Source: an uncultured Candidatus Melainabacteria bacterium (GTDB lineage: Bacteria > Cyanobacteriota > Vampirovibrionia > Gastranaerophilales > Gastranaerophilaceae). Taken from it: a DNA stretch of 54,788 bases. A model generated the notes under the pieces. The model saw only the letters and a list, made by a program, of their open reading frames with translations. It made no database searches and had not been told where the DNA came from. The number at the start of each line of letters is the position of its first letter. The first letter of the stretch is position 1. Both the position numbers and the translations under genes were made by a program. The stretch lies in NCBI GenBank assembly GCA_947090755.1, contig CAMUPF010000011.1, positions 1-54,788 on the forward strand, read 5' to 3'. Positions 19,918-39,742 of this stretch are shown here, piece by piece.

Positions 19918-19962
19918 ATATGGGCCGCAGTGGACTCGAACCACCGACCTCACCCTTATCAG
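19918..19962. repeat. att site, left copy (45 bp; tRNA-Ile 3' fragment)
   Basis: Identical over 45 bp to 39666-39710, in the same orientation. It contains the last 42 nt of tRNA-Ile (minus strand), from inside the anticodon arm to the discriminator base. Sequence identity ends abruptly at 19963. This is the original tRNA 3' end left behind when the integrase inserted the island. Confidence 0.88.
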
Positions 19963-19976
19963 TGCCATTTTTATTT

Positions 19977-20091
19977 TTGATTGAGTTTGATTTATTGTTA
20001 TTATATTTGCATTTGAAGTACTTTTGCATACTCAATCAAAGTAAATCAAACTACATAAAATTACATAAAAGTCCATAAATAGTACATAAAA
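19977..20091. repeat. Putative integrase arm-site repeats, left end
   Basis: This gene-free stretch holds repeated TTTGATT/AATCAAA words (for example TTTTTGATTGAGTTTGATTT at 19974-19993, AATCAAAGTAAATCAAAC near 20034-20051) and repeated ACATAAAA words. A 22-bp segment at 20070-20091, beginning AGTCCATAAATAG, recurs exactly and in the same orientation at 39579-39600 at the other end. Such paired motifs beside att sites are typical of arm-type sites for tyrosine integrases. The remaining part of 19760-20160 shows a terminator and the att copy, no gene. Confidence 0.55.
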
Positions 20092-20160
20092 TCTGTTATA
20101 AGCTTTTGAGTTGACAAATCGTAGTGTATATCAGGATTTTCAGTTAGAAAGCTTTTATGC

Positions 20161-20166
20161 TAGAAT
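20161..20166 (+). promoter_or_regulatory. Extended -10 six nt before the 229-aa gene
   Basis: TGCTAGAAT, with the hexamer TAGAAT at 20161-20166, is followed by six nt and the ATG at 20173. No Shine-Dalgarno at a usable distance; the message is probably leaderless. A TTGACA at 20111-20116 is too far upstream to pair with it. Confidence 0.45.
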
Positions 20167-20172
20167 TAGGTC

Positions 20173-20862
20173 ATGGCAGATATTATACTTAAATCCTTTA
20201 AACTTACACGAAAAGACGGAAAACTTATTGATGTCGAAATTTACAATAATGAAAACATTAATAATGTTGAAATTTTAGATATTAAAACCCTTAGGTTTGA
20301 AGGAATGAAAACAAAAGATATAAAGAAATCGGATATACATAACGTAGTTTTGAAGGATGAAAATAAGTTATATCTACAAAATAAGCAATCAAAAATGGTT
20401 GCCGGTCTTTCTAAAAAGCACTTGAACAAAATTATTTCAACTGTGTTTACAAAAGATACTCAAGGTAAGTTCAGTTACCTTAAAAAAGAAATTATTGCTA
20501 ATGTTGATGTAATATTTTATGCAGCATTACCAATCCTTAAACATGCGGAATTGAAAAAAGAAGTATTATATAACTGTCAAATTATTCATAGGTTTGCAAT
20601 ACCTTTAAAAATAGGTGGGTTGGAGTTCTTAACAATGATTACAGTTAAAGAAAGGCTTGATTCTAAAGATACAATTATTGATGAATTTGCTATATATGAC
20701 TTGTATTCAGAATCTATACAAAATAAAAAATCACCTGATAGTCCCTCTACGGTTTCTGTAGGAAATAATCCTATGACCACCCGTAGCCATTACCAGATGA
20801 CTATTTTTAGTTTAAACGATTTATACAATTTTGTCAAGTCTAGTATTACAAAAACGCAATAA
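20173..20862 (+). CDS. Hypothetical island protein, possible BECR-like nuclease domain
   Basis: 229-aa soluble protein. The N-terminal 90 residues are Lys/Asn-rich. The C-terminal part (FYAALPILKHAELKK, YNCQIIHRFAIPLKIGGLEF, FAIYDLYSESIQNKK) resembles, by eye, the toxin-like domains found at the ends of phage polyvalent and MuF proteins (barnase/EndoU/colicin/RelE-type), with a candidate His in KHAELKK. That assignment is weak. It stands alone at the left end of the island, convergent with the serine recombinase. Confidence 0.55.
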   Translation: MADIILKSFKLTRKDGKLIDVEIYNNENINNVEILDIKTLRFEGMKTKDIKKSDIHNVVLKDENKLYLQNKQSKMVAGLSKKHLNKIISTVFTKDTQGKFSYLKKEIIANVDVIFYAALPILKHAELKKEVLYNCQIIHRFAIPLKIGGLEFLTMITVKERLDSKDTIIDEFAIYDLYSESIQNKKSPDSPSTVSVGNNPMTTRSHYQMTIFSLNDLYNFVKSSITKTQ

Positions 20863-20884
20863 TAACAAAGCATACAGCGTTTTG

Positions 20885-21499
20885 TTATGCCAAAGCTTTA
20901 AATTGTTCACTGTTCTGTTTTAAAAAGTGCCGAAGATTAACTGTTGATGTGTTGTATCTGTCTGCAATTATTGTCTTTGGCACTTTTAGTTTTACCAATT
21001 TTAAAATATTATCTTTGTGTTCATCAAGTTTTGATTTGCCTTTGCCCTTTGGTCTACCGAGTTTTGTTCCCATGGCTTTTCTTGCGTGTAGGGCTTCTTT
21101 TGTTCTCAAACTTATTAAATCTCTTTCAATTTGTGCTATTAGTGCAAAAACAGTACTGGCGACAACTGATGATATTGTATTATCGTCATTTGAAAAGTTT
21201 TCTTTTAATGAATATAAGGTTATTCCTTTCTGTTTGGTGATTTCGATTACTTCAAAAATTTGTGTTACTGACCTTGCAATTCTTGACAGTTCAGGAACAA
21301 TTAAAACATCACCTTTATTCATTCTTTCTAATAATGTACCGAGTTGTCTTTTCTTAAAATTCGATTTACCACTAATTTGTTCTTCTATAAATTCAACATT
21401 ACCCAGTTTTTTATCGTTTACAAATTTCAAAACATCAAGTTTGTTTTTCTCTGTGTTTTGGTCGATTGTACTAACTCGCAGATATGCGTATGTTGCCAT
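20885..21499 (-). CDS. Serine recombinase (resolvase/invertase family)
   Basis: 204-aa small serine recombinase. Catalytic region: Ser10 in YLRVSTIDQN, VPELSRIARSV, and IERDLISLRTKEAL leading into the long dimerisation helix. The C-terminal 45 residues form a helix-turn-helix DNA-binding domain (KTIIADRYNTSTVNLRHFL), preceded by LGRPKGKGK. It could invert or resolve DNA within the island or cut and rejoin at a partner site; no pair of crossover sites was recognised. It begins 16 bp after the 53-aa ORF, with AGAAAGG upstream, likely on one transcript. Confidence 0.88.
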   Translation of the reverse strand: MATYAYLRVSTIDQNTEKNKLDVLKFVNDKKLGNVEFIEEQISGKSNFKKRQLGTLLERMNKGDVLIVPELSRIARSVTQIFEVIEITKQKGITLYSLKENFSNDDNTISSVVASTVFALIAQIERDLISLRTKEALHARKAMGTKLGRPKGKGKSKLDEHKDNILKLVKLKVPKTIIADRYNTSTVNLRHFLKQNSEQFKALA

Positions 21500-21515
21500 T
21501 ATAAAATTTACCTTT

Positions 21516-21677
21516 CTATTCTTTAATCCACTCTTGGTAATTTGAAATAAATTCTCCTGCTATAGCTTTTTGTTGTTCTGCTGTGTAGTTGTAGCAACAA
21601 TCTACTTCCCAATACAAAGAAGTGCCGTTAAAAATTTGTAATGTTCCGTCTTGTGTTAAATTCCAGTTCCAATTCAT
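21516..21677 (-). CDS. Small Trp-rich protein (53 aa)
   Basis: A 53-aa open frame starting at ATG 21677 (MNWNWNLTQDG) with AAGGTG upstream, ending at 21516. It is unusual in composition, with four Trp and two adjacent Cys (WEVDCCYNYT). It lies directly upstream of the serine recombinase on the same strand and downstream of a plausible promoter. No family recognised; it may modulate the recombinase or be a small regulator. Confidence 0.5.
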   Translation of the reverse strand: MNWNWNLTQDGTLQIFNGTSLYWEVDCCYNYTAEQQKAIAGEFISNYQEWIKE

Positions 21678-21740
21678 TTCGCACCTTGTAATTTGTCTTA
21701 AATGCTTGCTGTATCATAAAAACCGGTGTTTTATATTTTT

Positions 21741-21780
21741 ATTATCCATTTTCAGGAATAAAAAATCACCCGGTTTCGTC
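21741..21780 (-). promoter_or_regulatory. Island promoter with AAACCGG-type operator (P21)
   Basis: Minus strand: GTGATT (21764-21769), 17-nt spacer, GATAAT (21741-21746), with GAAACCGG just upstream of and touching the -35. The layout matches the promoters at 27646 and 31213, where AAAACGG abuts TTGA-type -35 boxes. It would drive the 53-aa ORF and the serine recombinase. Confidence 0.4.
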
Positions 21781-21841
21781 ATATAAATTCATGAAATAAA
21801 AACGGTCGGTTTTAGGTATGGAACAACTTTAGGGTAAAATA

Positions 21842-22558
21842 TTATATTAAATTATTTTTTCTTTTCCATGCATTATAATGCTTTAAATCATCTTCTGCAT
21901 ATTGGGTTATTGAATCAAGTAAGTTATAACAAAAGTGCATAAACCATTCTTTATCTAGCAAAACATCAAAACAAATTTCAACCTTTACGGCTCTGTAATC
22001 TTGATGTATTAATCGTACTCTATCATCTTTTCTCCAAGCAATCCATGTAAATGGTGAAAATTCTTCATTTTGATAAACTGCATAATTATTCTTCTCAAAA
22101 TTTTCAAGAAATTTTTTGAAATCAATTATAAAAATTTGTGCAAGAAGTCCGATTTCAATGGTTTTTTCTGGCAAAATAAATTCTATTTCTACACTTGTGT
22201 AAAAAGTTTCACCCATTTTTACATCATTATAAATATACTGATAATCAACATCATCATAGTAAAAATTGTTTTCTAAAGTTATTTTTGATTGAAAATCCCT
22301 CATAATTTCTGGGTGAGAGGTCGGATATGGAATTTGTTCTTCTGGGAAATAATACTTATCATCAAAATGTACAATATCTGTTAATATGTGTAAATCCATA
22401 GCTTTATAAGTTGATAAATCTGCAATATTATAATATGTATAGCCTTCTTGCTTATATATTTTCTCGCATTCTTCATAAGGCAGATACATTTTTTTGTGCT
22501 GTAACGTATCTGAACCGGAAGTTTTGTACCAAACGACAAAATATTTTTCTTTGTTCAT
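21842..22558 (-). CDS. Hypothetical protein, last gene of the WG operon
   Basis: 238-aa soluble, acidic, Tyr-rich protein. No family recognised. Its second half follows a pattern seen also in its neighbours at 23760 and 25163: a beta-rich stretch, then Phe/Leu-rich helices, then a W..K.D.RVRL..Q.Y segment and E..FDVLLDKEWFMHF. This suggests a shared, diverged domain. It lies 11 bp after the WG-repeat gene and ends the five-gene operon. Confidence 0.65.
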   Translation of the reverse strand: MNKEKYFVVWYKTSGSDTLQHKKMYLPYEECEKIYKQEGYTYYNIADLSTYKAMDLHILTDIVHFDDKYYFPEEQIPYPTSHPEIMRDFQSKITLENNFYYDDVDYQYIYNDVKMGETFYTSVEIEFILPEKTIEIGLLAQIFIIDFKKFLENFEKNNYAVYQNEEFSPFTWIAWRKDDRVRLIHQDYRAVKVEICFDVLLDKEWFMHFCYNLLDSITQYAEDDLKHYNAWKRKNNLI

Positions 22559-22569
22559 AAAAACACCTC

Positions 22570-23745
22570 TTAAATTTCCATAGGGTCGTAATATTTAAAA
22601 TCAACAATTATATTGCCTTTTTTATCTATCCTTCCCCATTTTTTGTTTTTACTAGCATAAATTTTATCTTCTGATACAAACATGTCATCATATATGAATG
22701 CTGTAAGGTTTTGATTTTGAATATCAATTAACCCGAATTTACCGTTTAACTCTGCTACAATAGCAAGTGGTAAATTGTTCACAAGAAATTCGTATTCAAC
22801 AGGGATTATAACATTGTTATCCATGTCTACAACACCATACCTATTATCTTTTTGAACTACTACATAATCCATTTGTGGATAATAAATTTCATCGTATTCA
22901 AACGGAATAATAAGTTTGTTATCTTTATCTATCAATCCCCACTTATCATTTCGCTTTACTGTAAAATAATTAAAATCAGGTGAACCTAGTGAAATCCCGT
23001 CGTATTCGCATGGTATAACCACATTATGAGCAATATTAATAATTCCCCACTTGTTATTTTTACAAACTTCTACACTCGTATGGTTTGGGTGCATTTGTAT
23101 CTCGTCATATTCAATTGGTATAATTACTTCATTTTTAATATTTACAACACCCTCTTTACCTTTTTTATATACTCTAATCCCGATTGGCAAATAATCAAAT
23201 ATATCCATGTATTCAAAAGGTATAACAATTTCGTTGTTTAAATTAATTATGCCGCAGAGGTCATCTTTTTTTGCTAGTACATAATCGCCTTTTGGATAAT
23301 CAATTTCGTCATATTCCAGAGATACTAATATATTATTTTGTTTGTCTATAATGCCCCACAAATTATTGTTTCTAACAGGAAAATATTTGCTATCAACAGG
23401 GTCGGTTGACACATAATCGTATTCAAAAGGTATAAGTACATTTTCTTTCAAATCAATAATTCCACATTTATCACTTTTCACTGCTCGAATAATATCTTCA
23501 TTTTCAAACGGGAAATTTAGGTTTTTGTATGTAAAAGGTATGATTATCTCATTTTTAGCATTTATTAAACCCCAGTTATCGTCTTTTTGTGCAACAAAAC
23601 AGACTGTATTGTCCTGCAAAGTTTTACTATCTAATGAATCGTATTCAAGAGGGATAAGGATTTCATCTTTGCAGTTCATTACACCTGACTTGTAATCCTC
23701 ATTTTCTACTATTTTGTAATCTATATAACCTTTTAATAGTTCCAT
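22570..23745 (-). CDS. WG-repeat protein (11 repeats)
   Basis: 391 aa made almost wholly of WG (KWG-type) repeats, about 34 residues each: WGLINAKNEIIIPFTYKNL, CGIIDLKENVLIPFEYDYV, WGIIDKQNNILVSLEYDEI, WGLIDKDNKLIIPFEYDEI and others. I count about eleven, some with Cys, Glu, Phe or Tyr in place of Trp. These repeats form beta-propeller-like binding platforms and are common in bacterial conflict systems and in Bacteroidetes/gut genomes. There is no signal peptide. Central gene of the operon 27471-21842. Confidence 0.88.
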   Translation of the reverse strand: MELLKGYIDYKIVENEDYKSGVMNCKDEILIPLEYDSLDSKTLQDNTVCFVAQKDDNWGLINAKNEIIIPFTYKNLNFPFENEDIIRAVKSDKCGIIDLKENVLIPFEYDYVSTDPVDSKYFPVRNNNLWGIIDKQNNILVSLEYDEIDYPKGDYVLAKKDDLCGIINLNNEIVIPFEYMDIFDYLPIGIRVYKKGKEGVVNIKNEVIIPIEYDEIQMHPNHTSVEVCKNNKWGIINIAHNVVIPCEYDGISLGSPDFNYFTVKRNDKWGLIDKDNKLIIPFEYDEIYYPQMDYVVVQKDNRYGVVDMDNNVIIPVEYEFLVNNLPLAIVAELNGKFGLIDIQNQNLTAFIYDDMFVSEDKIYASKNKKWGRIDKKGNIIVDFKYYDPMEI

Positions 23746-23759
23746 TTTTTTATTACCTT

Positions 23760-25151
23760 TTACTTTTCTACTTTACGCTCTGCAAGCATCATATAATCTA
23801 CTAACATTTGAACGGCAAGTTCTATGCCATTATCAAATACAAAAACCATTTCTTCATACATATCATCACCTTGTTCACGTGGTACTTTCCATGTTATAGA
23901 AGGTTGGTCAGTTTTTATAATATAAATATCTTTTAATGTATGACCGATAAGATTTTTTTGATAATGTTTACTTATATCTTGCCATTTTCTATCAAAAACC
24001 ATATAACTATTGAACTCTCCTTCTTTTAATGTGTTGATACCCATTTGAATCAGGCTATGCTCATGAAAATCAATTTCGACTTGAGTATCGCCAAAATAAA
24101 GTATTGCAGGCTCATCAAGGTCTGCGACATAGTCTTCTAAATAATCATCAGGATTGTAATCTTCTTCGGCATAATTAATAATTGTAAAATCATTTTCATC
24201 AACACCGCAAAACTCACAAGCATAATATTTACCATCCATAAATTCAAGATAATTGGAACGATCAAATAAATATCCTGTAATTAAAATTTTATTTAAAGGT
24301 TTGTTTATTATTTGAGGTTTTATTTCATTTATAAAATTTTCAAGTTCTGTTGCTGTTATAAATTTTTTAGCAGTCCAATTGTCATAGCTTTGAAACTCAC
24401 TATCGTCTACTTGCTTATTAGTTTCTCTCTCTGATTCTCTTATTTTTTGTTCTGCTTCTTCATTTTCCTGTAAAAGTTCTTTATATTTATAATTTAGTAG
24501 TCTTGCCAAATCAATATGCTTGCGTGGATTAGTAAAACTCTCATGGTTTTCTAATTCGTATTGCTTAATTTCATCAACAATCTTGTCTGAATATTTTTTT
24601 ATAACTCGTTTTAATTCATTTGCTAATTGTGTTTTGTCAACAATGATGTCATATATAAATTCAGATTTAAAATCTGCATTCTCATCATTATTTATCGGAA
24701 CATATTTTTGCAGTGCAAACCTAACTTTGTTATCTTCCTTTTGCCAAGCATAAAATTTGATAGCACAAATTTTATTACAATATCTTGTAATATTTTCCCC
24801 TTTTTCAAGTTCACTTACAAAAAGTTCTATTTCTTCAAAATTCCATAATTCCAACTCGACAGAAATATTAGACATTGGAAAGTCAAACATTGTAAAAGAA
24901 TATTCTTTTGTTCCTGTTTCTTTTCCAAAATGATAAGCAACAAAATTCTGTAAATTATTTTGGTTTTCTTCTTCTGTTTTATCTTTTGAACCTAACAAGT
25001 CATTTATTGTAAAATTTTCAATTACAACAGGTTTATTTTTTGGTTCTAATTCTGACATATCGTCATTTTTATACCAATAATTGTCATGTGCGTTATAACC
25101 AAAGCTATGCGGAGTTTCGTTAATATTAAATTTTCCAATTTCTTTAATCAT
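23760..25151 (-). CDS. Hypothetical two-domain protein of the WG operon
   Basis: 463-aa acidic soluble protein, not recognised. Residues about 60-185 share the family pattern of the operon (FEEIELFVSELEKG, WQKEDNKVRFALQKY, FIYDIIVDKTQLANELKRVI). Residues about 215-250 form a charged coiled coil (KELLQENEEAEQKIRESERE). The C-terminal 200 residues are a separate mixed domain with CEFCGVDENDF, near residue 315. Spacing to its neighbours is 11-14 bp. Confidence 0.68.
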   Translation of the reverse strand: MIKEIGKFNINETPHSFGYNAHDNYWYKNDDMSELEPKNKPVVIENFTINDLLGSKDKTEEENQNNLQNFVAYHFGKETGTKEYSFTMFDFPMSNISVELELWNFEEIELFVSELEKGENITRYCNKICAIKFYAWQKEDNKVRFALQKYVPINNDENADFKSEFIYDIIVDKTQLANELKRVIKKYSDKIVDEIKQYELENHESFTNPRKHIDLARLLNYKYKELLQENEEAEQKIRESERETNKQVDDSEFQSYDNWTAKKFITATELENFINEIKPQIINKPLNKILITGYLFDRSNYLEFMDGKYYACEFCGVDENDFTIINYAEEDYNPDDYLEDYVADLDEPAILYFGDTQVEIDFHEHSLIQMGINTLKEGEFNSYMVFDRKWQDISKHYQKNLIGHTLKDIYIIKTDQPSITWKVPREQGDDMYEEMVFVFDNGIELAVQMLVDYMMLAERKVEK

Positions 25152-25162
25152 TTTATGTCCCT

Positions 25163-27244
25163 TTATACCTTTCTTTTAAAATTTAATACTTCACCTTTTG
25201 CGTTTATAAATCCCCATGTTGCAAGATATTTTCCGGGTATGAAATTTAAGTTTTTCGGGTCAACTTTTATATCACTGAATATAAAATCAATCAACATGTT
25301 GCCTTTCCAGTCAAGAATCCCGAATTTATTATCTTTAGAAAGTATTAAAATTTCACTCAACAGCCAAAACTTTTCATCTATTGGAAATTCCAAAGTCAAA
25401 ATATCTTCACCTTTAGAATTAACAAAGTATGTTTTATTGTAATCAACTGCTACAAAATACAATTCGTTATTTATATAAGTGTAATGTATTCTATCACTCA
25501 CATGTGGGATTTGTATATCACCGTTAATATCTATTACAAATTGTTTGTTATCTTCTTTTGCTGCAATAAATAATTTGCCGTCAATATTATGCAGATATTT
25601 ATATTTTTTTATATACCCTTTTAATTCCTTGCCAAATCTCTTATGTGTTTTCCCCCATACTGCAACTGATTCAGGAGCAATAACCCATTCAAAATTTTGA
25701 TTAATAATTCCGTAGCCGTCAGAATCTGTTTGTACACAAGCATAATCGCCTATAAAATTGTCAATATGCTTAAATATACTACTCCCAGAGGCATACTTGA
25801 ATTTTCTTGATATTTCCAGTTTTTCCCCAACTGAAATAACTCTTTTCATTGTATCAAAGGTTTTATGTATATCATCAAATGCTTTTAAAAAGCTATTTAT
25901 AAAGTCTTGTTTATTTACTTCAATAGCACAATAAATTTCATCATCATCAACATCGACTTTTTCATCTATATAATAATTTCTGTTTGATTTTGATAAAACA
26001 TAAATTTTTTGAGATTCTGTGTCTTTTTCTTTTTTCTCATTCCAAATAAACATTTTACCCCAATCGACATCAACTCGTACATCTTCCCCTTGTTCAAGCT
26101 TTTTAAGGGCATTTTTTATTGCATTTTCGCAATCTGTGCAAAATTTTAATTCTTGTTTTTCATCGTTATAACAACTGAATTTAAGTTTAAAATCTATTCC
26201 ATACTCAAAGTTATCCTTTATAATATCAACAATTCGTTCCTCTGTATAATCTTCGGAATAATTGCTATAAACATTAGGGTCAATAGTATGTACCATTTTA
26301 AATAGTGTTTTTAATGGCATATCCATGGTTTCATTGGTTGAATACCATTTCTTTGTATATGTAGAATATACCCAATTTCTTTCTTCTGTACGTTCAAACA
26401 TGTCAGGTGATATTGATTTTCTTAATTCTTCTACTGTTAACTGTTTTTTTCTGGGTTCATCATTCTGCCAACAATATAGTGATTGTGGGCTTTGTTCTAC
26501 ATAATCAAAATCAAGAATCTTACCTTCTGCCAATTGATTTTGCCAGTATTCTATTTGTGATTCTTCTTCATTTTCAAAGTGAATTTTAAATTTCCACTTT
26601 CCATCTAAATCCTTGTATGCAATATCAAAAACTCTTATAGGTTCTCTATAGTTGTAATTATTTTTAAATTCAAGCGGATTATCAAAGTATGATTTTAAAT
26701 CAGTTATAAAATCATCTAACAAATTTATAACATATTCTCTGCGTTGAACTTGGTGCATATCTGAATTTAAAATAACTAATACATCAAGAAATTGTTTTAA
26801 TAATGTATTTTTGTTGATGATAATATCTGATAGAATTTTTTTATTTTCCATTAAACCATAGTCAAATACTGTAAACCTGATATTTTCATCATCTAACATA
26901 ATTGCTGTTATTGCACTATATGAACCCTCATCAAAAATATTAAGTATTAAATCTGTATTATCGTGATAAGCAATTAAAGTTAAAAATTCTAACAGCCCGT
27001 CAATGGATTCAGTTATTGTTGAAATATGAATTATACCGCCATTTATATAAAAGTAATAATTATCAATCCCGAAATTATAACCAATAACCCAATGTGTTCC
27101 TTGGGTATCAATTTGTTCGATTTTTTGCGGCTTTGATTCTCTTAAACATTTTAAAAATTCATTTTTTTCTTTACATAAATCTAATTTGTAGTTGACATAA
27201 TGAATATCGTCAAAACTGTATAATTTTTCTTTAATCATTTTCAC
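25163..27244 (-). CDS. Large hypothetical protein with C-terminal WG-like repeats
   Basis: 693 aa. Two copies of the operon's shared pattern are seen, at about residues 60-165 (LLEFLTLIAY, IRFTVFDYGL, DIIINKNTLLKQFLDVL) and 350-465 (KLEQGEDVRVDVDWGKM, EVNKQDFINSFLKAF). The last 200 residues are degenerate WG repeats (GYGIINQNFEWVIAP, FGILDWKGNMLIDFIFSD, WGFINAKGEVL). So it fuses the shared domain to the repeat module found alone in the next-but-one gene. No signal peptide. Confidence 0.7.
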   Translation of the reverse strand: MKMIKEKLYSFDDIHYVNYKLDLCKEKNEFLKCLRESKPQKIEQIDTQGTHWVIGYNFGIDNYYFYINGGIIHISTITESIDGLLEFLTLIAYHDNTDLILNIFDEGSYSAITAIMLDDENIRFTVFDYGLMENKKILSDIIINKNTLLKQFLDVLVILNSDMHQVQRREYVINLLDDFITDLKSYFDNPLEFKNNYNYREPIRVFDIAYKDLDGKWKFKIHFENEEESQIEYWQNQLAEGKILDFDYVEQSPQSLYCWQNDEPRKKQLTVEELRKSISPDMFERTEERNWVYSTYTKKWYSTNETMDMPLKTLFKMVHTIDPNVYSNYSEDYTEERIVDIIKDNFEYGIDFKLKFSCYNDEKQELKFCTDCENAIKNALKKLEQGEDVRVDVDWGKMFIWNEKKEKDTESQKIYVLSKSNRNYYIDEKVDVDDDEIYCAIEVNKQDFINSFLKAFDDIHKTFDTMKRVISVGEKLEISRKFKYASGSSIFKHIDNFIGDYACVQTDSDGYGIINQNFEWVIAPESVAVWGKTHKRFGKELKGYIKKYKYLHNIDGKLFIAAKEDNKQFVIDINGDIQIPHVSDRIHYTYINNELYFVAVDYNKTYFVNSKGEDILTLEFPIDEKFWLLSEILILSKDNKFGILDWKGNMLIDFIFSDIKVDPKNLNFIPGKYLATWGFINAKGEVLNFKRKV

Positions 27245-27255
27245 CTGAAAGCATT

Positions 27256-27471
27256 TTAAGTCTGCTTCCGACTTTGTTCTTGTGTTTTTATATATTCTTT
27301 AATAAACGGATATTCTTTTGAAAGTTCTTCAACTGCTTCTAAAAGAAAATCAGGGTCTTTGTTTATGTTAGTTGCAAGATTAATAGCTTTGAGTTTGGAT
27401 ATAAGTTCTTCTTGCTTATGTGGTGGCATATATTTAAATATAATATTAATTACATCGTCATTTATTGTCAT
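27256..27471 (-). CDS. Small hypothetical protein, first gene of the WG operon
   Basis: 71-aa helical, charged protein (MPPHKQEELISKLKAINLA, LEAVEELSKEYPFIKEYI). No known domain. It ends 11 bp before the 693-aa gene and begins about 165 nt after the predicted start from P27. No clear Shine-Dalgarno sequence. Confidence 0.6.
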   Translation of the reverse strand: MTINDDVINIIFKYMPPHKQEELISKLKAINLATNINKDPDFLLEAVEELSKEYPFIKEYIKTQEQSRKQT

Positions 27472-27820
27472 AAGCTATAACCCATATTTTTCAAAGTCGT
27501 AATAACACAACTCACACTAAAACAAATAATTTGCTTGTAGTGTGATGTCTTAAATTTTTCTGCGTTTAAAATAATGTTTTTTGTCATTAATGTTCGCTGT
27601 AATTATAAACAACGATAAATAATTATTTATAATACTTGTATCTTTATAATACATGGGGCTTCAAAAAATTTCAACCGTTTTCTAGTTATTTGTCATAAAT
27701 TTTAATCAAATAATTTTTGATAATTCTGTTAAAGTAGGTGTTATATGAGGATTTAAGCTATAAATATCATATTTATTTTTAGTCCTTTAAATTTTTTATT
27801 TTTGTACCGTTAAAAATATT
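27472..27820 (-). promoter_or_regulatory. Promoter P27 and long 5' leader of the WG operon
   Basis: This gene-free stretch holds, on the minus strand, TTGAAA (27669-27674), a 17-nt spacer and TATTAT (27646-27651). AAAACGG directly abuts the -35, and a TTTGATTAAAATTTATG block lies about 20 bp further upstream; both recur at the 31213 promoter. The 165-nt leader contains a hairpin, CACACTA (27513-27519) with TAGTGTG (27538-27544). No gene or terminator is evident between 27680 and 27820. Confidence 0.5.
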
Positions 27821-28957
27821 TCAATCATTCGCTAATATTGTATAATCAGGTATTTTAATATCATTTGGCAATATTTCACCATGTATTTCGCCTGTATTAT
27901 CGTTGTATGTTGAAACTAAATATTGCCAGTTTGTACAATTTTTATTTTTTGATTGCTGTTTTAAAAACGTTACTAATTGGGTAAGTTCTGTTTTATTTAA
28001 TTTCCATGTATTACCTTTGTTGTGGCAATTCTTGAATATTCCTGTTGTTTTATATTCTGCTTTCAAAAAATTAAATACAGCAAATTTTCTTATTTTATTT
28101 TCATCGTTTTTTGTTATGAAAAAATACGGTTTTTTATCAAAAGTTAAAAAATCATCAATGTAAATATTCACAAATCCAGTATCTTTTTTGTCAAAAACTT
28201 TATTAACGAACCAACCAAAATCCTGTTCAACAGGCTGTATTGTTTGTTTAATAAGTTCTAAAGCAAAGAAATTGTTAGTTTTTAATTCTTGACAATCCTG
28301 ATGTATAAATTCCCAAAAGGCTTGCTTACATTGTGCAATCTGATAGTTTGAAAGACTATGTGATAAATCATCTACAAAAATTTCTCTTTTAGATTTTGGA
28401 AATACTGTTGTCATAGGTAAACCCATTTTGACATATATTTTTAACTCAACATCTAGCTTTAAATCTTTCGCATAAATGTTGTAACTTAAACTGTAATCTT
28501 TATCAGGCTTAACATAGAATAGGTATCTATCTGTTTTAAATGTTGATTGATTGTATTTACGTAAAAACTGTATAATCTCACTGTATGTTAAATCAATCAT
28601 CTCGGTTATCATACAAGGTTCATTCAATAAAGCAAGAAATGTATTGATTTTGTATTTGTTATCGGGGTTTTCTCTGATTGTTTCAAATTTTATGTCTTCT
28701 GCTGAATTTGGATTGTTTGTCAGTAAGGTCAATAAATAAACTGAAGAACTTTCTTTTATGCCGTTTGGATAGTTAATATCTGTAACAATAACCTTGTTCC
28801 CACATAAAAAATAATTCCAATGACGGTAAGAATCGAGAGTGTAAATTATTTCTTTTTGGGGGATATTTAACAGCATACGAATTTGCTCAATCCATTTTTG
28901 AACCTGTTCAACATACAAAGTATTTTTGTAATTTTTAATTCTTTCAACTTGTTTCAT
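27821..28957 (-). CDS. Hypothetical island protein
   Basis: 378-aa soluble protein, not recognised; Lys/Asn/Phe-rich with no membrane segment. It starts 4 bp inside the end of the 729-aa gene (ATGA-type overlap), so the two are translationally coupled. Internal motifs such as REIFVDDLSHSLSNYQIAQC and KTELTQLVTFLKQQSKNKN do not match a family I can name. Confidence 0.65.
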   Translation of the reverse strand: MKQVERIKNYKNTLYVEQVQKWIEQIRMLLNIPQKEIIYTLDSYRHWNYFLCGNKVIVTDINYPNGIKESSSVYLLTLLTNNPNSAEDIKFETIRENPDNKYKINTFLALLNEPCMITEMIDLTYSEIIQFLRKYNQSTFKTDRYLFYVKPDKDYSLSYNIYAKDLKLDVELKIYVKMGLPMTTVFPKSKREIFVDDLSHSLSNYQIAQCKQAFWEFIHQDCQELKTNNFFALELIKQTIQPVEQDFGWFVNKVFDKKDTGFVNIYIDDFLTFDKKPYFFITKNDENKIRKFAVFNFLKAEYKTTGIFKNCHNKGNTWKLNKTELTQLVTFLKQQSKNKNCTNWQYLVSTYNDNTGEIHGEILPNDIKIPDYTILAND

Positions 28958-31143
28958 TGTGCCGTTTGCATATCTTCTTGTTGATCAACATATTTGATTA
29001 ACTGATTTAAAGCAGATTCTGTAAAGTCATTCCCTGTATCAGTTTTTAAATATTCAATGATTTCGTTATTTGTAACTTGTTTTGTTGCTTTTTCTTCTTC
29101 CGGTAAAAATATTGAGTTTTGAAATGTCAATCTTACATTGTTTTCTTTTGCTACTTGTAACATATAGCCTAATGTATTGCTGTTATAATATGGGCGAAAT
29201 GCCAAATTATAAATTAACTCATCAAAATCAAGATTTGATAAATCAATGCCGGATTCAACAACTTTTTTATAAATCCATGTTTCTTTTGGGTTCATTGTTT
29301 CTTTGAATAAATTATTTATAGTTCTATTATCCAGTGATTTGTTTTTAAATTTTGCTAATGATTTATCTGAATGAACTATTGAAAATCTTGCAGGAGTGTT
29401 CGGCGATAATACAATTTTAAAATAATGGTTAAACATAGAAAAACCAACTGCAAAATGTTTATTTTGATGTTGAGTATCATCAATTAGCCAAGTGAACCCA
29501 CAATTCGTTTCGTTTTTGAGTTCATTTTGATGTAATCTGTTAAAACTGAATTTTAAATAATGATTAAACGGCAAATAAATTTCTATACTTCTGCCATAAG
29601 GTTTATTTAGGTAGTTTGAGTTATAAATTTTTATATATTTTGAGTTGTAAAACTCTTTGTATTTCTTTCCTCTTTTGTTTTGAATTTCCATGTCGATTTT
29701 TTTGTTAAATTGGTGGATTAAAATATCTTCTTCAATAGATACCAATTGTTGTTTTTTGTAATTGTAGCAAATATCTTCTGTTAATGAGCCAATCCAAAAA
29801 GTTTGCCAAATTCCTAAAAAAGTAATATTTATACCGAGTTGACGAACATTGTTATGCAAAAATTTAAACGCAATACATTTTTCTGATGTCATACCCTCTT
29901 TGCTGAAATCGGCAAGTATGTAGTTTGAAATGCCAAAATCTCTTGAAAAATTTAATTTAAAGTTATGCTCAAATTCTGTTTCACCCAAATGCCTAATATC
30001 AAATTTTAAATAAGTATTGAAAAGTTTAATAAAAAAATGTACTAATTCACCATGTCCTGCAAACAAATCACAGCCACAATTAAATAATTTTGGTTTGCAT
30101 GTAATTTGTTCTTCTGCTATTGGAATTGAATTATCCTTTAATGCTAATAGTTTTTGATAAGCAACAGGCTCAAAATCGTCTTTGAGATTTTCTATTTCTT
30201 CCCAGTTTTTAACATAATTGATTTTTGATAGAACATACTCAAAAATTTCTTGTCTGTAATTCCAACTGTAAGAGATTTCTTGTAAAACATTATCAGTATT
30301 TATTTTTGCTAAATCAACATACTTAAAGGCATACCACAAAAAAGCAAGATTTTTGTGTTCAACTTGTTTTGATAAAATATTAAAGCCATATTCGTCTTGC
30401 ATGTTTGGGTCTGCACCATGGTTTATTAAAGTTAAAAAATCTTCTGCATGATATAAATTAGCTTCTCGCAAAACCGTATTTTGCCCAATTTCAAACTCAA
30501 TAAATCTTGAAAACAGTGATATATTTGTTTTTAGTGTTAATCCTGTTGTACCGTTATTTTGTTCTTTATTTAGGTCAAAATTAATATTAAACCAATACTT
30601 TTTATCAACTCCAAAACTGAATTTTGTGTAAAATAAGGTCGGAAACCAAGCCCAATCAATAGTTAATCCCCATGGATTGTTTAAGAAATCAAAATTATAA
30701 ACTTTTAAAAATTGTGAGTTGTAATACCATTTTGCTTTTTTCTTACGTTCTTTATATACAGGCTTTTTGTTGTTTGGATTGCCTAATAGTTGATTGTATT
30801 CTTCCTCTGTAGATATGTAAACCCGTTTGCCTGTATAGTAATTCCATTCTCTGGTATCATAAAAGTCAAACTGAAAATAAATTAGGTTAAAAATAGAAAA
30901 TTCCAAAAACCATAGCGTATGAGCAGCGTATCTGCCAATATAGGATGTAAAAGTTAAACTGTTCTCGCCATGCATATCAAGACTAAAATCCCAAGCTTTA
31001 TATTTACCAATCTGACCTATTCCGCTCAAAATCCTATTAATAAGGAATAAGTGCATATTGCCAATACTAAAAGATAAAACATTACTACCGAAGCGACGAT
31101 ATATTTTAAATGTACCCAGTTTAAAAATAATATTTTTAGTCAT
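28954..31143 (-). CDS. Large hypothetical protein with internal duplication and ankyrin-like segment
   Basis: 729 aa in two related halves. The first half has YNSQFLKVYNFDFLNNPWG, then YTKFSF; the second has YNSKYIKIYNSNYLNKPYG, then YLKFSFN, each inside about 200 residues of aromatic-rich beta sequence. Each half is followed by a helical stretch; the first contains FLTLINHGADPNMQDEYG, an ankyrin-like repeat, then LSKQVEHKNLAFLWYAFKY. No signal peptide or membrane helix. It is driven by the promoter at 31213-31241 and coupled to the 378-aa gene. Confidence 0.68.
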   Translation of the reverse strand: MTKNIIFKLGTFKIYRRFGSNVLSFSIGNMHLFLINRILSGIGQIGKYKAWDFSLDMHGENSLTFTSYIGRYAAHTLWFLEFSIFNLIYFQFDFYDTREWNYYTGKRVYISTEEEYNQLLGNPNNKKPVYKERKKKAKWYYNSQFLKVYNFDFLNNPWGLTIDWAWFPTLFYTKFSFGVDKKYWFNINFDLNKEQNNGTTGLTLKTNISLFSRFIEFEIGQNTVLREANLYHAEDFLTLINHGADPNMQDEYGFNILSKQVEHKNLAFLWYAFKYVDLAKINTDNVLQEISYSWNYRQEIFEYVLSKINYVKNWEEIENLKDDFEPVAYQKLLALKDNSIPIAEEQITCKPKLFNCGCDLFAGHGELVHFFIKLFNTYLKFDIRHLGETEFEHNFKLNFSRDFGISNYILADFSKEGMTSEKCIAFKFLHNNVRQLGINITFLGIWQTFWIGSLTEDICYNYKKQQLVSIEEDILIHQFNKKIDMEIQNKRGKKYKEFYNSKYIKIYNSNYLNKPYGRSIEIYLPFNHYLKFSFNRLHQNELKNETNCGFTWLIDDTQHQNKHFAVGFSMFNHYFKIVLSPNTPARFSIVHSDKSLAKFKNKSLDNRTINNLFKETMNPKETWIYKKVVESGIDLSNLDFDELIYNLAFRPYYNSNTLGYMLQVAKENNVRLTFQNSIFLPEEEKATKQVTNNEIIEYLKTDTGNDFTESALNQLIKYVDQQEDMQTAQ

Positions 31144-31212
31144 TGAAATAATTTTTGCATTTTAAGTAATTATAGATAATAATAAATAATCATAAAGATT
31201 ACCTATAATTTT

Positions 31213-31251
31213 ATAATACAAGCTCAACATGCAAAAATCAACCGTTTTTGC
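31213..31251 (-). promoter_or_regulatory. Island promoter P31 with palindromic operator
   Basis: Minus strand: TTGATT (31236-31241), 17-nt spacer, TATTAT (31213-31218). The -35 lies inside a 21-bp inverted repeat, 31231-31251, whose arms are GCAAAAA and TTTTTGC. AAAACGG abuts the -35, as in P27, and a TTTGATTAAAATTTGTG block lies about 20 bp upstream. It drives the 729-aa and 378-aa genes. Confidence 0.55.
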
Positions 31252-31279
31252 GAACTTTAGACACAAATTTTAATCAAAG

Positions 31280-31603
31280 CTATACATGTTTAAGCAAAGC
31301 AGAAATAACATCTGCACAAGCGTCTAATTGTTTTTCAGATGAATTATTTATTATTTTTTGAAGAAATAATTTGTTGGGGTAAGAATCAGAAGTATTTTGA
31401 AGTCCAAAATCGCCTAGTGTTAAATTTAATACTGAAAGAATTTTTAAAAAAGTATCAAGAGCAGGGTAATTTTTACCTGTCTCAATTTTGCTCAAATGTT
31501 TCTCGGAAATATCAATTTTTTCTGCAAGCTGTGCTTGCGTAAGTCCGATTTTTCTTCGAGAATCTTGTATAATTTGTGCAATATGCTTTTTATCTAGTTC
31601 CAT
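31280..31603 (-). CDS. XRE-family transcriptional regulator
   Basis: 107-aa repressor-type protein starting at ATG 31603 (MELDKKHIAQII), after GAGGAG; a longer frame to 31615 lacks support. The HTH_3/Cro-C1 domain is residues 5-60: RRKIGLTQAQLAEKIDISEKH, then LSKIETGKNYPALDTFLKIL. The C-terminal 40 residues are helical and probably dimerise. It sits between the two unknown operons and the divergent TM2 gene set, with GTGATTA palindromes upstream, so it likely controls its own promoter and perhaps the island promoters. Confidence 0.88.
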   Translation of the reverse strand: MELDKKHIAQIIQDSRRKIGLTQAQLAEKIDISEKHLSKIETGKNYPALDTFLKILSVLNLTLGDFGLQNTSDSYPNKLFLQKIINNSSEKQLDACADVISALLKHV

Positions 31604-31637
31604 GGTACTCCTCAACTTCCTTTAAAATAAATTACAT

Positions 31638-31746
31638 GTGATTACATCTAAACAATACAAGTGATTAAATATAATCACATATATTGACTAAAATGTATTT
31701 CCATTGTAGAGTATCATCATGGACAACTATTAGTTGTTTGTGATTA
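31638..31746. promoter_or_regulatory. Operator region with GTGATTA sites between the XRE gene and TM2 gene
   Basis: An 18-bp perfect palindrome GTGATTAAATATAATCAC lies at 31661-31678. Extra GTGATTA half-sites lie at 31638-31644 and 31740-31746. The region is the divergent intergenic space between the XRE regulator (minus) and the TM2 gene (plus). It is a good candidate for autoregulation. Confidence 0.55.
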
Positions 31747-31769
31747 GAAATAGTTGAAAAGTGTGAAAT

Positions 31770-32012
31770 ATGTCAAATTCGTATCATACCTATCCATATC
31801 GTAAACGTTTATTTTTTATTACTCTTTTACTGTGTGTTTTTTTAGGTTTTACTGGTGCTCATAGATTCTATTCTGGTAGCCCCGGTTATGGAAAATTTTT
31901 GTTGTTTACACTGGGTGGTTTTGGAATTTTATGGTTTTGGGATTTGCTTTTACTTGGTGGTTTATTTAGAGATTTAAAATATCATGCTGGTGATGGGGTT
32001 ATTTTAGTATAA
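31770..32012 (+). CDS. TM2-domain membrane protein
   Basis: 80-aa protein with two membrane helices and the TM2 signature: LLCVFLGFTGAHRFYSG, then YGKFLLFTLGGFGILWFWDL. TM2 proteins are small inner-membrane proteins of mostly unknown role. First gene of a plus-strand group running to about 34158. Confidence 0.82.
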   Translation: MSNSYHTYPYRKRLFFITLLLCVFLGFTGAHRFYSGSPGYGKFLLFTLGGFGILWFWDLLLLGGLFRDLKYHAGDGVILV

Positions 32013-32032
32013 GGTTTGAAAGGTATAAGTTA

Positions 32033-32779
32033 GTGAGCAAGGATAATTCTTATGAAAATTTAGAGGAATTAAGTAATGATCTAAAGTCATTATCTTATAG
32101 CTTGTCAAAATCTCAAATTATTCAAGATGAAATCAAAACTTCTGATAATACAATTCAAGAACCAGCAACTAATAATTGGTTAAAAAATATTAAACAGCAT
32201 TTTAGCGATTTTTGTGTCAACTTAAAAAGCAACTTAGATATTAAAAGGTGTAAAAGCTTTTTATCTGTATTATATAGGATATTTGTTTTTGCAGTGGTTA
32301 GTATACCATTTCTTTTGTGTGCTTATCTCTTTTTATTTGTTTTAGCTTGGATAACTGTTTTTATCGCAATAAAAAATGGACATGATTGGTTTACCCCAAT
32401 ATCAACATTTGTACCGTTTGCATTTCGATATGAAGGTGAATTAATGCTTGGAACTTGGTGTACAAACTTATCAATTGGACTAATCGCAATATTTTGTTTG
32501 ATTTGGAATGCAAAGATAGCATTTGATGAGCTTAATGCAAATATAAATTCTTATAAAAAATATTTAATATACAGCCTTCCTCTCATTATCATTTGTATAT
32601 TATCAATTTGTGTAATAACAATACCAAGTTGGTACATGTTTATTGCTTTGATTTCAGAATGGATATTTAAAATCCTTTTAGGATTAATTATTTTTTGTAT
32701 TGTTGTAAGGATTTTACAAGCGATAGCGGGAGAAGAACCTGAATATGATATAATTCAAATTTTTATTCCTAGGAAATGA
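32033..32779 (+). CDS. Hypothetical multi-pass membrane protein
   Basis: 248 aa with a GTG start at 32033 after AAAGG. Residues 1-75 are charged and soluble. Four or five hydrophobic segments follow (VLYRIFVFAVVSIPFLLCA, LCAYLFLFVLAWITVF, LSIGLIAIFCLIWN, YLIYSLPLIIICILSICV, KILLGLIIFCIVVRIL). No family recognised. It lies 21 bp after the TM2 gene and could work with it in the membrane. Confidence 0.68.
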   Translation: MSKDNSYENLEELSNDLKSLSYSLSKSQIIQDEIKTSDNTIQEPATNNWLKNIKQHFSDFCVNLKSNLDIKRCKSFLSVLYRIFVFAVVSIPFLLCAYLFLFVLAWITVFIAIKNGHDWFTPISTFVPFAFRYEGELMLGTWCTNLSIGLIAIFCLIWNAKIAFDELNANINSYKKYLIYSLPLIIICILSICVITIPSWYMFIALISEWIFKILLGLIIFCIVVRILQAIAGEEPEYDIIQIFIPRK

Positions 32780-32806
32780 AAAAATTGTAAAATTATGAGG
32801 TAAATA

Positions 32807-33121
32807 ATGTTGGAAACAAAATTTTTAAAAAATAAATTTAACGAAGAAATTCTTCAAGCAGTAGAAGAATCTAAAAAGATTGGTTATATACCTACAAGAT
32901 TTATTCAAATGTTGCAACTACAAGGAAACAATGCTTTTGAAGTTGTATCGAAATTAGTAACAAAAGAGGCTACAACAGGATTAGAAAAGTTGTGGGAAAA
33001 GGGACGATTAGATTTGTCTGTTGAAGCTGTGATGATTAAAAATGAATATAGAGAATTATTTGACAGTGATGTTATCAAAATCTGCGAAAAAAAATTAAAA
33101 AGTTGTGGCTATAAAATATAG
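32807..33121 (+). CDS. Small partner protein of a PD-(D/E)XK nuclease
   Basis: 104-aa helical protein. The block GYIPTRFIQMLQLQG, then GLEKLWEKGRLDLSVEAVMI, and a C-terminal LFDSDVIKICEKKLKSCGY match, from memory, a widespread small domain often coded next to restriction-like nucleases. Its function is not known to me. It ends 10 bp before the nuclease gene. Confidence 0.65.
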   Translation: MLETKFLKNKFNEEILQAVEESKKIGYIPTRFIQMLQLQGNNAFEVVSKLVTKEATTGLEKLWEKGRLDLSVEAVMIKNEYRELFDSDVIKICEKKLKSCGYKI

Positions 33122-33131
33122 GAAATTATAA

Positions 33132-33953
33132 ATGAATATTTTTGAAGCATTAAGCCATGGAAAAGGCTGTATTAATGAAGAAAATGTAAGTTCGTTTCTC
33201 GGATATTTACTTAGTCCAAATGAAGACCATGGTCTTGGAACAACATTTTTAGAAGATTTTTTAACAGCTATAAATATAAACAAAGACGAAATACTTTATA
33301 ACTTTGAAATATTACTAGAGTTTAAAGTTGAAACTTGTAAAAAATGTTATATTGATATGGTTTTTGAAACCGAAAATCACATAATAGCAGTAGAAAACAA
33401 AATATTAGTATCTTCACAAAAAACAGGACAATTACAAAATGAATATGACGGATTAATTAGATCTGAGTATTACAAAGAAATAGAAAACAACGAGCATAAA
33501 GACATTATCTTATGTTATTTAGTACCAAAAGACATAGCGGAAGAATGCAAGAAAGTTGAAACTATTAATAATGATAATTGCATAACACTAACATGGGATA
33601 AAATCATAAAAATCTTACAAAAACTGCTACAAAAAGAAAATCATGCAAGAATAAACCCTATAAATGAATATACCAAGCAAACAATAAAAGCATTTATCAA
33701 TTATATTGAAGATGTTATTAACCCTAAATATAAATCATTTGGTCAAAATCGCAAATATAGGATTTATAAGTATTCTTCTGGGAAAATTGTAGTGAAAGAA
33801 AATTTAAAAAATGGTAATTTCAGCCCTGTTTCTTCTTCAAGAAAAATAATTAGAGAAACTTTGAAAATAAAAAATCCTAATGAATATACTGATGAATCAA
33901 TGAAAATGGGAACAACTCGTTCCCTTGGTGCAAAATTATTTAAGATTTTATAA
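33132..33953 (+). CDS. PD-(D/E)XK nuclease-family protein
   Basis: 273 aa. The restriction-endonuclease-like core is visible: Asp75 in CYIDMVF, then Glu88-x-Lys90 in IIAVENKI, with KTGQLQNEYDGL after it. The N-terminal FEALSHGK, NEENVSSFLGYLLSPN resembles the PF14281-type PD-(D/E)XK families linked to phage defence. The catalytic residues appear intact. It probably forms a two-gene module with the 104-aa protein upstream. Confidence 0.78.
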   Translation: MNIFEALSHGKGCINEENVSSFLGYLLSPNEDHGLGTTFLEDFLTAININKDEILYNFEILLEFKVETCKKCYIDMVFETENHIIAVENKILVSSQKTGQLQNEYDGLIRSEYYKEIENNEHKDIILCYLVPKDIAEECKKVETINNDNCITLTWDKIIKILQKLLQKENHARINPINEYTKQTIKAFINYIEDVINPKYKSFGQNRKYRIYKYSSGKIVVKENLKNGNFSPVSSSRKIIRETLKIKNPNEYTDESMKMGTTRSLGAKLFKIL

Positions 33954-33960
33954 TAAAAAT

Positions 33961-34158
33961 ATGAAACAAAATAATGTTGTAGAGTTAGAATTATACAAAG
34001 TTAGAAAGCAGAAAAAAGAAGTTGCTTTTAAAATGATTATTGGCAGAACATGGCTAAAAATAATTTTAAACTTGTTGAATATCATTTTGTGCTTGATAAA
34101 AATTATGTGTTATACGGTTATTTTTATAATTGGTATTCTTTTGATAATCCGTTTGTAA
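33961..34158 (+). CDS. Small membrane protein
   Basis: 65-aa open frame from ATG 33961 (MKQNNVVELELYKVRK), 7 bp after the nuclease stop. The second half is one long or two short hydrophobic helices (IILNLLNIILCLIKIMC, VIFIIGILLIIRL) after a Lys-rich stretch. No Shine-Dalgarno sequence is clear. It may be a toxin-like or accessory membrane peptide; coding status uncertain. Confidence 0.4.
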   Translation: MKQNNVVELELYKVRKQKKEVAFKMIIGRTWLKIILNLLNIILCLIKIMCYTVIFIIGILLIIRL

Positions 34159-34202
34159 ATTAAATCAATGTGTAATTTGTCATTTACTCGCTAAAACGCA
34201 TG

Positions 34203-34406
34203 ATAAAATCGCTGTTATTGCTCGCAGAATGAGTTAATATATGTCTTGCTCTTGTTATTTTTGTTATGATGATTTAAAATGCTAGTAATGGAGAAGCTAT
34301 AGCGATTTGAGCCGGTGGTTAGCTAGCCGGCATCCATTTTTTGTTTATTCGCATATAGAATAATTGTTTAACAATTTTAATTTTATATAAAATCGCTGTT
34401 ATTGCT
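34203..34406 (+). repeat. Pair of imperfect direct repeats around a candidate RNA
   Basis: ATAAAATCGCTGTTATTGCT occurs exactly at 34203-34222 and 34387-34406; similarity continues for about 20 more bases (…AATGAnTTAATATAT). A second shared word, AAAATGCTAG, follows each copy (34277-34286 and 34442-34451). Each copy ends in a TGCTAG-type -10, so the repeats look like duplicated promoter regions: the first for a short RNA, the second for the 456-aa gene. Confidence 0.55.
34290..34345 (+). ncRNA. Candidate short RNA ending in a terminator
   Basis: After a TTGTTA/TAGTAA-type promoter ending near 34287, about 55 nt follow: a purine-rich start, TAGCGATTTGA, then a hairpin GCCGG (34311-34315) with CCGGC (34327-34331), and T6 at 34338-34343. 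No ORF fits. AGCGATTT can pair with AAATCGCT of the upstream repeat. It could be a regulatory or antitoxin RNA for the next gene, but this rests on structure only. Confidence 0.35.
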
Positions 34407-34448
34407 TATAAAATGAATTAATATATTGCACAACTTGTAGCAAAATGC

Positions 34449-34454
34449 TAGGAT
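34449..34454 (+). promoter_or_regulatory. Extended -10 six nt before the 456-aa gene
   Basis: TGCTAGGAT, hexamer TAGGAT at 34449-34454, with TTGCAC (34426-34431) 17 nt upstream, and ATG six nt downstream at 34461. No Shine-Dalgarno site; likely leaderless. Confidence 0.45.
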
Positions 34455-34460
34455 ACTTTT

Positions 34461-35831: not shown

Positions 35832-36036
35832 AAAAAACGATTAATTTTATGAAATAAGCTATTATCCAATAATATCAAGTATTTATACAAAAATTACTAA
35901 TTAAAAAACTCACGCTTTTTTATTAGCTTGTTTTTTACAATAAGTATCAAAGTCCTTGATATTATTGCTTTTAACAATTTATTTTCATGAAGAAAAAGTT
36001 ATAGCAGTTAGATTATATTGTTTTTTTTATCCCTGC

Positions 36037-36042
36037 TATTAT
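36037..36042 (+). promoter_or_regulatory. Extended -10 of the HTH-retron operon
   Basis: TGCTATTAT with hexamer TATTAT at 36037-36042, 9 nt before the ATG of the HTH gene. No convincing -35. The candidate retron RNA and RT lie downstream with no terminator before them, so they may share this promoter. Confidence 0.4.
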
Positions 36043-36051
36043 GGAACCATA

Positions 36052-36264: not shown

Positions 36265-36294
36265 AACAGAAAAACAGATTCAAAAAAAACAAAA

Positions 36295-36524: not shown

Positions 36525-36596
36525 GTCAGGGCTACCATTCATACAGAATGCTGACATCTTCTCCCTTTAATAAAATTTACAACATAAGGAGAAAAA

Positions 36597-38405: not shown

Positions 38406-39524
38406 ATGAGGGTTTACGAAAGAAATAATCATTGGTATTTTGAAGGTATGATACGCAAAAAACGTTATTGTCGTGCTATTCCAGAGGCTACAAACAAAAA
38501 AGAAGCAGAAAAATATGTAACAGTATTCAAAGCTGACCTCTTAAGAGGAAGACTTGATTTGGCAGAAAATATCGGGCAAAAACCTTTTACTGAAATTGCT
38601 GATATGTATATCAAGTATGCGCAAACAAATCTTTGTGCCGCTGATACAGCATTAAGAATTGCAAAACGGTTTAAAGAACACTGGAAAAACAAGACAATAG
38701 CTGATATTACTCCAAAAGTTATTGAAAATTACAAAGAAAGCAGGCAAAAAACAGCTTTCGCAAAAAGAATTGTTGACGGCAAGGAAGTCGTAAAATATAT
38801 TTCGTCTGCAACAATAAATCGTGAAATTGCAGCATTAAGCAAAATGTTTTCATTAGCAATAGCAAATGGACTTGCTCGAGAAAACCCAGTAAGAGATGTT
38901 AAAAAATTACGAGTAACAAATAAACTTGAAAGACATTTATCAGTTGAAGAAGAAAAACGGATATTTCAAGTGTGTGATGATGATTTTTCTTTTTCTAACT
39001 TACCACAAGAAGAACAAGAGCGTTTGCAACGCATTCATAACGGCGAACATGCATATTTAAAACCTATTCTTATTATGGCTTTGAATACAGGCATGAGAAA
39101 AGGTGAAATTTTAAATATGACTTGGGATTGTGTCAATTTTGAGAAAAAAGAAATTTCTGCCCTAAACACTAAAAACGGCAAGAAAAATACAATCCCTATG
39201 AGCAATAAACTATACGAAACACTTTTAAAAATGTACAAATGTAAAAATAATGATAAATATGTTTTTACAAACCCTTATACCGGTACAAAATATACAGATA
39301 TTAAAAAAAGTTTTAAAACTGTTTGTAAATTAGCTAATGTTAAAAACTTACGATTTCACGACCTACGACATACAGGAGCAACGAGAATGGTTGCCGCAGG
39401 TGTTCCACTCCCTGTTGTTAAACAAATTCTTAACCATGCAAGTATTCAAACTACAATGAGATATGCTCACACCATGCGAGAACAAGAAATTCTTGCAGTA
39501 GAAGCTTTGGCAAATTTTCAATAG
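38406..39524 (+). CDS. Tyrosine-type site-specific integrase
   Basis: 372-aa phage-type integrase. N-terminal arm-binding-like region (RNNHWYFEGMIRKKRYCRAI), a core-binding SAM-like domain at about 60-165, and a catalytic domain with R231 (GMRKGEIL), H318 and R321 (FHDLRHTGA), H344 (ILNHASIQTT) and Tyr353 (MRYAH). All catalytic residues are present. It lies 145 bp from the right att copy and points toward it, as usual for tRNA-targeting islands, and explains the 45-bp duplication of tRNA-Ile. Confidence 0.93.
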   Translation: MRVYERNNHWYFEGMIRKKRYCRAIPEATNKKEAEKYVTVFKADLLRGRLDLAENIGQKPFTEIADMYIKYAQTNLCAADTALRIAKRFKEHWKNKTIADITPKVIENYKESRQKTAFAKRIVDGKEVVKYISSATINREIAALSKMFSLAIANGLARENPVRDVKKLRVTNKLERHLSVEEEKRIFQVCDDDFSFSNLPQEEQERLQRIHNGEHAYLKPILIMALNTGMRKGEILNMTWDCVNFEKKEISALNTKNGKKNTIPMSNKLYETLLKMYKCKNNDKYVFTNPYTGTKYTDIKKSFKTVCKLANVKNLRFHDLRHTGATRMVAAGVPLPVVKQILNHASIQTTMRYAHTMREQEILAVEALANFQ

Positions 39525-39533
39525 TTTAAATTC

Positions 39534-39665: not shown

Positions 39666-39742
<77 letters not shown>

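Follow-up and report, generated by a model that had tools for sequence, protein, structure and literature searches.

What is the function of an operon that combines WG repeats with several protein families without known relatives, and that travels on a mobile island of an uncultured Candidatus Melainabacteria bacterium? The host belongs to the Gastranaerophilales, non-photosynthetic gut relatives of cyanobacteria, and how these deal with phages and competitors is barely known. We analyzed the operon in a contig stretch of 54,788 nucleotides (the window), together with related loci (L numbers) from other genomes, and conclude that it is probably an undescribed defense system against phages or rival bacteria. 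The operon offers a definable kernel, consisting of the F1 family and WG, as well as natural variants into which a nuclease or an RNA ligase has been plugged; together these make the function of cytoplasmic WG-repeat proteins directly testable.

An earlier, sequence-only reading had described a tightly spaced cluster of five genes, and the ORF map of the window confirms it: between 21842 and 27471, five open reading frames follow each other on the minus strand, separated by gaps of 11, 14, 11 and 11 bp (the last becomes 17 bp if the 693-aa gene starts at ATG 27238 instead of GTG 27244). The five genes stand, but the proposed start of the operon at 27471 does not, since F1, the gene of a 729-aa protein and an XRE regulator lie upstream on the same strand (Table 1). 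F1 and the 71-aa gene are 350 bp apart, so there may be a second promoter between them; a promoter scan was uninformative (61 sites vs. 69 expected). The 729-aa gene sits where other arrays have their first F1 copy, and its product has no match in Pfam, PHROG or PADLOC and no relative in the related loci. Homologs of the XRE regulator, 72-73% identical, precede the arrays of L036 and L072 at a short distance, and further ones are found in L040, L041 and L066-L068.

Table 1. Coordinates of the operon, its domains and the main features of the surrounding island.
Feature	Position	Strand	Basis or remark
F5, XRE-type helix-turn-helix regulator, head of operon	31280..31603	-	Pfam HTH_3, E 7e-14
729-aa protein	28954..31143	-	Overlaps F1 gene by 4 bp; ankyrin-like stretch by eye
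F1, 378 aa, conserved core gene	27821..28957	-	16-sequence alignment
F4, 71-aa helical protein	27256..27471	-	Homologs at equivalent place in L036, L040, L041, L077
693-aa protein: S, probable second S-like domain, degenerate WG/propeller-like region	25163..27244	-	Orthologs, S profile, AF2 model
S domain, first copy, 693-aa protein	26684..27136	-	Profile search; hhalign between subfamilies
Probable second S-like domain, 693-aa protein	25817..26197	-	Repeated ββ-α-ββββ-α predicted structure; S profile matches orthologs
Degenerate WG/propeller-like region, 693-aa protein	25166..25777	-	Profile link and predicted fold
463-aa protein: S domain and C domain	23760..25151	-	Profile search
S domain, 463-aa protein	24519..25061	-	Profile search
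C domain, ~200 aa, 463-aa protein	23778..24383	-	Profile search
WG-repeat-only protein	22570..23745	-	PF14903, E 3e-50, 10 stretches
238-aa protein: S domain	21842..22558	-	Profile search; ortholog in L036 46% identical
att repeat, left	19918..19962		45 bp, identical to 39666-39710
att repeat, right = 3' end of tRNA-Ile(gat)	39666..39710		Exact repeat
Tyrosine integrase of island, inside right repeat	38406..39524	+	Pfam Phage_integrase, E 3e-34
PDDEXK_4 nuclease, PADLOC candidate PDC-S26, divergent neighbor operon; associated only	33132..33953	+	PADLOC, Pfam

A diverged pattern had been noted in at least three of the genes. It corresponds to a shared domain of about 150 residues, here called S, in the 693-aa (residues 35-185), 463-aa (residues 31-211) and 238-aa (residues 65-230) proteins. 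Its signature of a conserved proline, an FL..L helix, E..G, an IR/VR pair and a D-I-x-I-x-K strand comes close to the pattern originally described. The similarity is invisible to direct BLAST between the three proteins; the profile-profile comparison that had been suggested as a check connected two S subfamilies (hhalign, E 1.4e-6). The S and C profiles, built from related loci, were run against few loci, so single E-values from these searches are optimistic. A second S copy in the 693-aa protein is indicated by orthologs, which the S profile recognizes, and by repeated secondary structure; the copy in the window gave no significant match. In the AF2 model of this protein (pLDDT 74, weaker than for F1, with only the WG part effectively tested in the fold search), a ββ-α-ββββ-α(long) pattern is predicted twice, for S and the second S-like domain, in addition to a propeller-like WG region. 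The C domain (residues 257-458 of the 463-aa protein) was found by profile search in 11 other array proteins; elsewhere, it is combined with S or D domains. Aligning the 463-aa protein jointly with pieces of S and C produced a misalignment, which we dropped, and a comparison of S with F1 by hhalign yielded an end artefact only.

One gene had been read as almost pure WG repeats and one as a fusion of degenerate WG repeats to other domains; both descriptions proved accurate. The former consists of WG repeats throughout and is a full member of the WG family PF14903 (168.2 bits at a gathering cut-off of 25.6); in the window's own genome, WG matches (six) occur only in this gene. The latter encodes the 693-aa protein, whose C-terminal ~200 residues form a degenerate version: they score 14.4 bits, below the Pfam cut-off of 25.6, and are linked by profile to the WG-only protein. 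Their predicted fold appears WD40/propeller-like, residues 478-675 reaching Z-scores of up to 8.4, with a Foldseek E-value of 3.5e-5 at best, in both cases for a common fold and a partial propeller. What sets the WG proteins here apart from the family is that they are cytoplasmic and encoded in an operon with F1, S and C proteins. The papers we found establish no function for the family, and our literature search returned none on WG repeats in phage defense.

F1 is among the most conserved array genes, with 33 invariant columns in the alignment, and most related arrays carry it in two tandem copies. Its predicted structure is a confident AF2 model (pLDDT 87.5, pTM 0.86) without known fold. Foldseek searches gave no significant match in PDB or BFVD (viral folds), and the best VIA match, to TULIP-like OrfX2 (Z 6.4, 97 residues, 3.2 Å), as well as the next, weak ones, to PH and polo-box, lie in the range of common arrangements. 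Neither F1 nor the 693-aa protein, S or C had a match among PDB sequence profiles. The invariant residues D165...E171-x-K173 of F1 made us think of a possible PD-(D/E)XK-like hairpin, which we do not claim.

The operon had been placed on a mobile island beside a retron and a nuclease, and all parts of this description hold. The island measures 19.8 kb (19918-39710) and is bounded by exact 45-bp repeats of tRNA-Ile. Empty sites, in which its flanks lie together, are present in L083 and L084, and the left flank (lytB) adjoins tRNA-Ile in related genomes within the genus. GC content falls from ~0.40 outside to about 0.26-0.33 inside. Besides the integrase and the PDC-S26 nuclease, the island carries an excisionase-like gene and a retron-type reverse transcriptase closest to PADLOC RT_VI (E 2e-52). 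The reverse transcriptase is followed by two tandem ~125-aa paralogs, 25% identical (36597-38261). The island's left end holds genes for an LPD3-like protein (20173-20862; weak, below the Pfam cut-off) and a serine resolvase (20885-21499). A TM2 protein and a 104-aa protein (31770-33121), possibly a second, divergent operon of the same element, have homologs that also adjoin the XRE gene in L072 and L036.

The sequence-only reading knew of no system with this gene set. Searches of the array proteins against Pfam, NCBIfam, PHROGs and PADLOC yielded no significant family except WG, and the seven minus-strand genes between 21842 and 31143 had no match at E ≤ 1 in PADLOC-DB 2.0.0 (library of 2023).

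The analysis also covered relatives of the operon. A scan of 84,980 species with short patterns yielded ten loci, of which the named ones are from Candidatus Gastranaerophilales of rabbit and ruminant guts. F1 was present in 9 of 146 family genomes and in 8 of 386 phylum-sampled genomes (142 genera), all of the latter in the family under study; S, again in that family only, was found in 20 of the 146 and 18 of the 386. Full-length orthologs of the 693-aa protein (38-45% identical) occur in four other genomes of the family. The survey of other loci, proposed for the five-gene set, showed that the operon recurs in rearranged form in other Gastranaerophilales, F1 and WG being constant and the S, C and D modules shuffled. 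The recurring order across genera is F1-F1-(S,S,WG)-(S,C)-WG-S, in a fuller layout F1a - small gene - F1b - (F4) - (SF0329-like) - S,S,WG - S,C - WG - D or S proteins, with the domain combinations S-C, C-S, D-C and WG-D-C in different loci. In the shortest arrays, L066 and L068, WG proteins are accompanied by a single F1 gene, which overlaps with WG by 4 bp. Occurrence of the genes apart from each other elsewhere had been named as evidence against a common system, and this is partly what we see: S and WG genes occur outside the set, but each intact F1 locus that we found also includes a WG-only gene in its cluster. Decayed F1 pieces exist in genomes G089, G118 and G308, and in L039 (3553-4778) stop codons break F1 into two ORFs, so that this copy seems to be decaying. 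Among closely related loci, dN/dS for F1, SSWG, WG, D and RtcB is 0.07-0.29, so the core genes are maintained rather than rapidly diversifying; one short 83-aa gene has dN/dS >1, on very few changes.

To judge the company that the arrays keep, we used the ten array genomes (19.9 Mb), in which ~271 kb (1.4%) lie no farther than 10 kb from an array gene (the territory). By this proximity measure, the arrays cluster non-randomly with genes of the defense type: 8 of 11 PDDEXK_4 genes (binomial P ~2e-13), 6 of 25 WYL-regulator genes (P ~9e-7) and 3 of 5 RtcB loci (P ~3e-5) fall into the territory, and the P values stay below 2e-4 with the territory doubled and PDDEXK counted by locus, but mobile cargo breaks their assumption that genes are placed independently, and they thus show association with a neighborhood class, not a shared function. 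L042 has a PDDEXK_4-like gene flanked by S genes, and in L068 an XRE gene is followed on the same strand by PDDEXK-PDDEXK-x-WYL-WG-x-WG-F1. RtcB lies inside the arrays of L036 (13698-15239), L037 (13840-15317) and L045 (1-2493), with a conserved 73-114-aa partner, F8, apparently a helix-turn-helix protein.

Our preferred reading, which we hold tentatively and at somewhat less than an even chance, is that the operon is cargo of an integrative element and acts as a multi-protein defense (conflict) system. Its observed base is the tRNA-Ile island, the F1/S/C/WG operon, its recurrence and its proximity to PDDEXK_4, WYL and RtcB. The retron-type reverse transcriptase and the PDC-S26 nuclease on the same island argue for it, as do the exact att repeats with empty sites, the GC drop from ~0.40 to ~0.28, and the kernel and order conserved across genera down to the reduced F1 and WG versions. 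The low dN/dS of the core genes adds to this, and so does the position of S genes outside the arrays, which adjoin type I restriction-modification genes in four genomes and, in one, a WYL gene. Against it, no array gene matches a known defense family or effector and no catalytic site was recognized; F1, the 693-aa protein and C have no relatives in viral contigs, nor F1 in phage records; and mobile-element cargo clusters anyway, so that proximity does not prove shared function. Compared to known PDDEXK_4 (PDC-S26) and WYL (wHTH-WYL-WCX) defense-island cargo, the genes are alike in mobility and recurrent clustering, but neither PADLOC models nor Pfam families match F1, S, C or D. In such a defense system, XRE and WYL repressors would keep expression low, WG propellers and S/C modules would serve as protein-binding sensors of phage or competitor products and might assemble on F1, and F1 itself or neighboring enzymes (PDDEXK nuclease, RtcB) would inflict or repair damage. 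A more specific form, a lineage-specific multi-sensor defense with F1 as a new core, WG and shuffled S/C/D modules for breadth of recognition, and interchangeable nuclease or RNA-repair effectors, we consider possible, though on the unlikely side.

The same divergent, binding-type proteins on a recombinase-bearing gut element also recall the acquired interbacterial defense (AID) clusters of gut Bacteroidales, and by this analogy the operon could be an orphan-immunity array, in which each S, C, D or WG protein would neutralize a toxin injected by competitors. Tandem, highly divergent paralogs, shuffled multi-domain proteins without enzymatic domains and carriage by tyrosine-recombinase elements in gut bacteria (here the integrase with 45-bp att repeats) fit this proposal, as do the S copies that occur singly, one of them adjoining a Fic gene. 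We nevertheless judge it unlikely: no immunity family of Pfam was matched at E ≤ 0.1 by the 39 scanned proteins, no toxin except the one Fic was recognized beside the arrays or solo S genes examined, F1 is not lost independently of WG, and the fixed F1-F1-SSWG core order under strong purifying selection resembles a complex, not an assortment. Of the original suggestion of defense or toxin immunity, the first half gains from the PDDEXK_4/WYL association, while the second found little support. It is rather unlikely that the genes have no role in conflict and serve the element's own maintenance, transfer or excision control or are neutral cargo. The arrays do belong to integrative elements that encode XRE, excisionase-like and integrase proteins, and three contain DnaB-like genes, but S genes also occur outside any recognizable element (L046, L133), composition varies strongly while the integrases are conserved, and the association with nuclease, WYL and restriction-modification genes speaks against this explanation. 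A response to RNA damage, in which the array would sense or handle cleaved RNA with RtcB/RlaP repair enzymes, appears quite improbable. RtcB/RlaP systems have been explained as repair that counters RNases (PMC6514570). Three arrays enclose RtcB together with a 114-aa partner, and S is fused to an RlaP nucleotidyltransferase in L047, yet the window's genome and most arrays have neither enzyme, and RtcB, present in 20 of 146 genomes, also occurs without arrays.

Outside the arrays, S appears in varied surroundings. The solo copies beside type I restriction genes are in L122, L123, L130 and L132, the R subunit being confirmed by Pfam in L122 and assigned in the other three by near-identical or similar N-terminal sequence; in L132, S is fused to an ankyrin-like region. 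The S gene next to Fic is in L126, and the protein beside a WYL gene (L131) has C-S architecture. We also considered solo S as the immunity partner of an adjacent large protein, but rejected this, as L124 has a terminator-like hairpin (by eye) between its 1882-aa gene and S, and no toxin domain was found. The contig piece with the S-RlaP fusion of L047 (6883-8490) also carries genes of the TniB-like AAA and rve transposase types. In two genera (L043, 7591-9090; L133, 6357-7882), a solo S gene adjoins a similar gene, by eye, for a membrane-anchored metallophosphoesterase-like protein.
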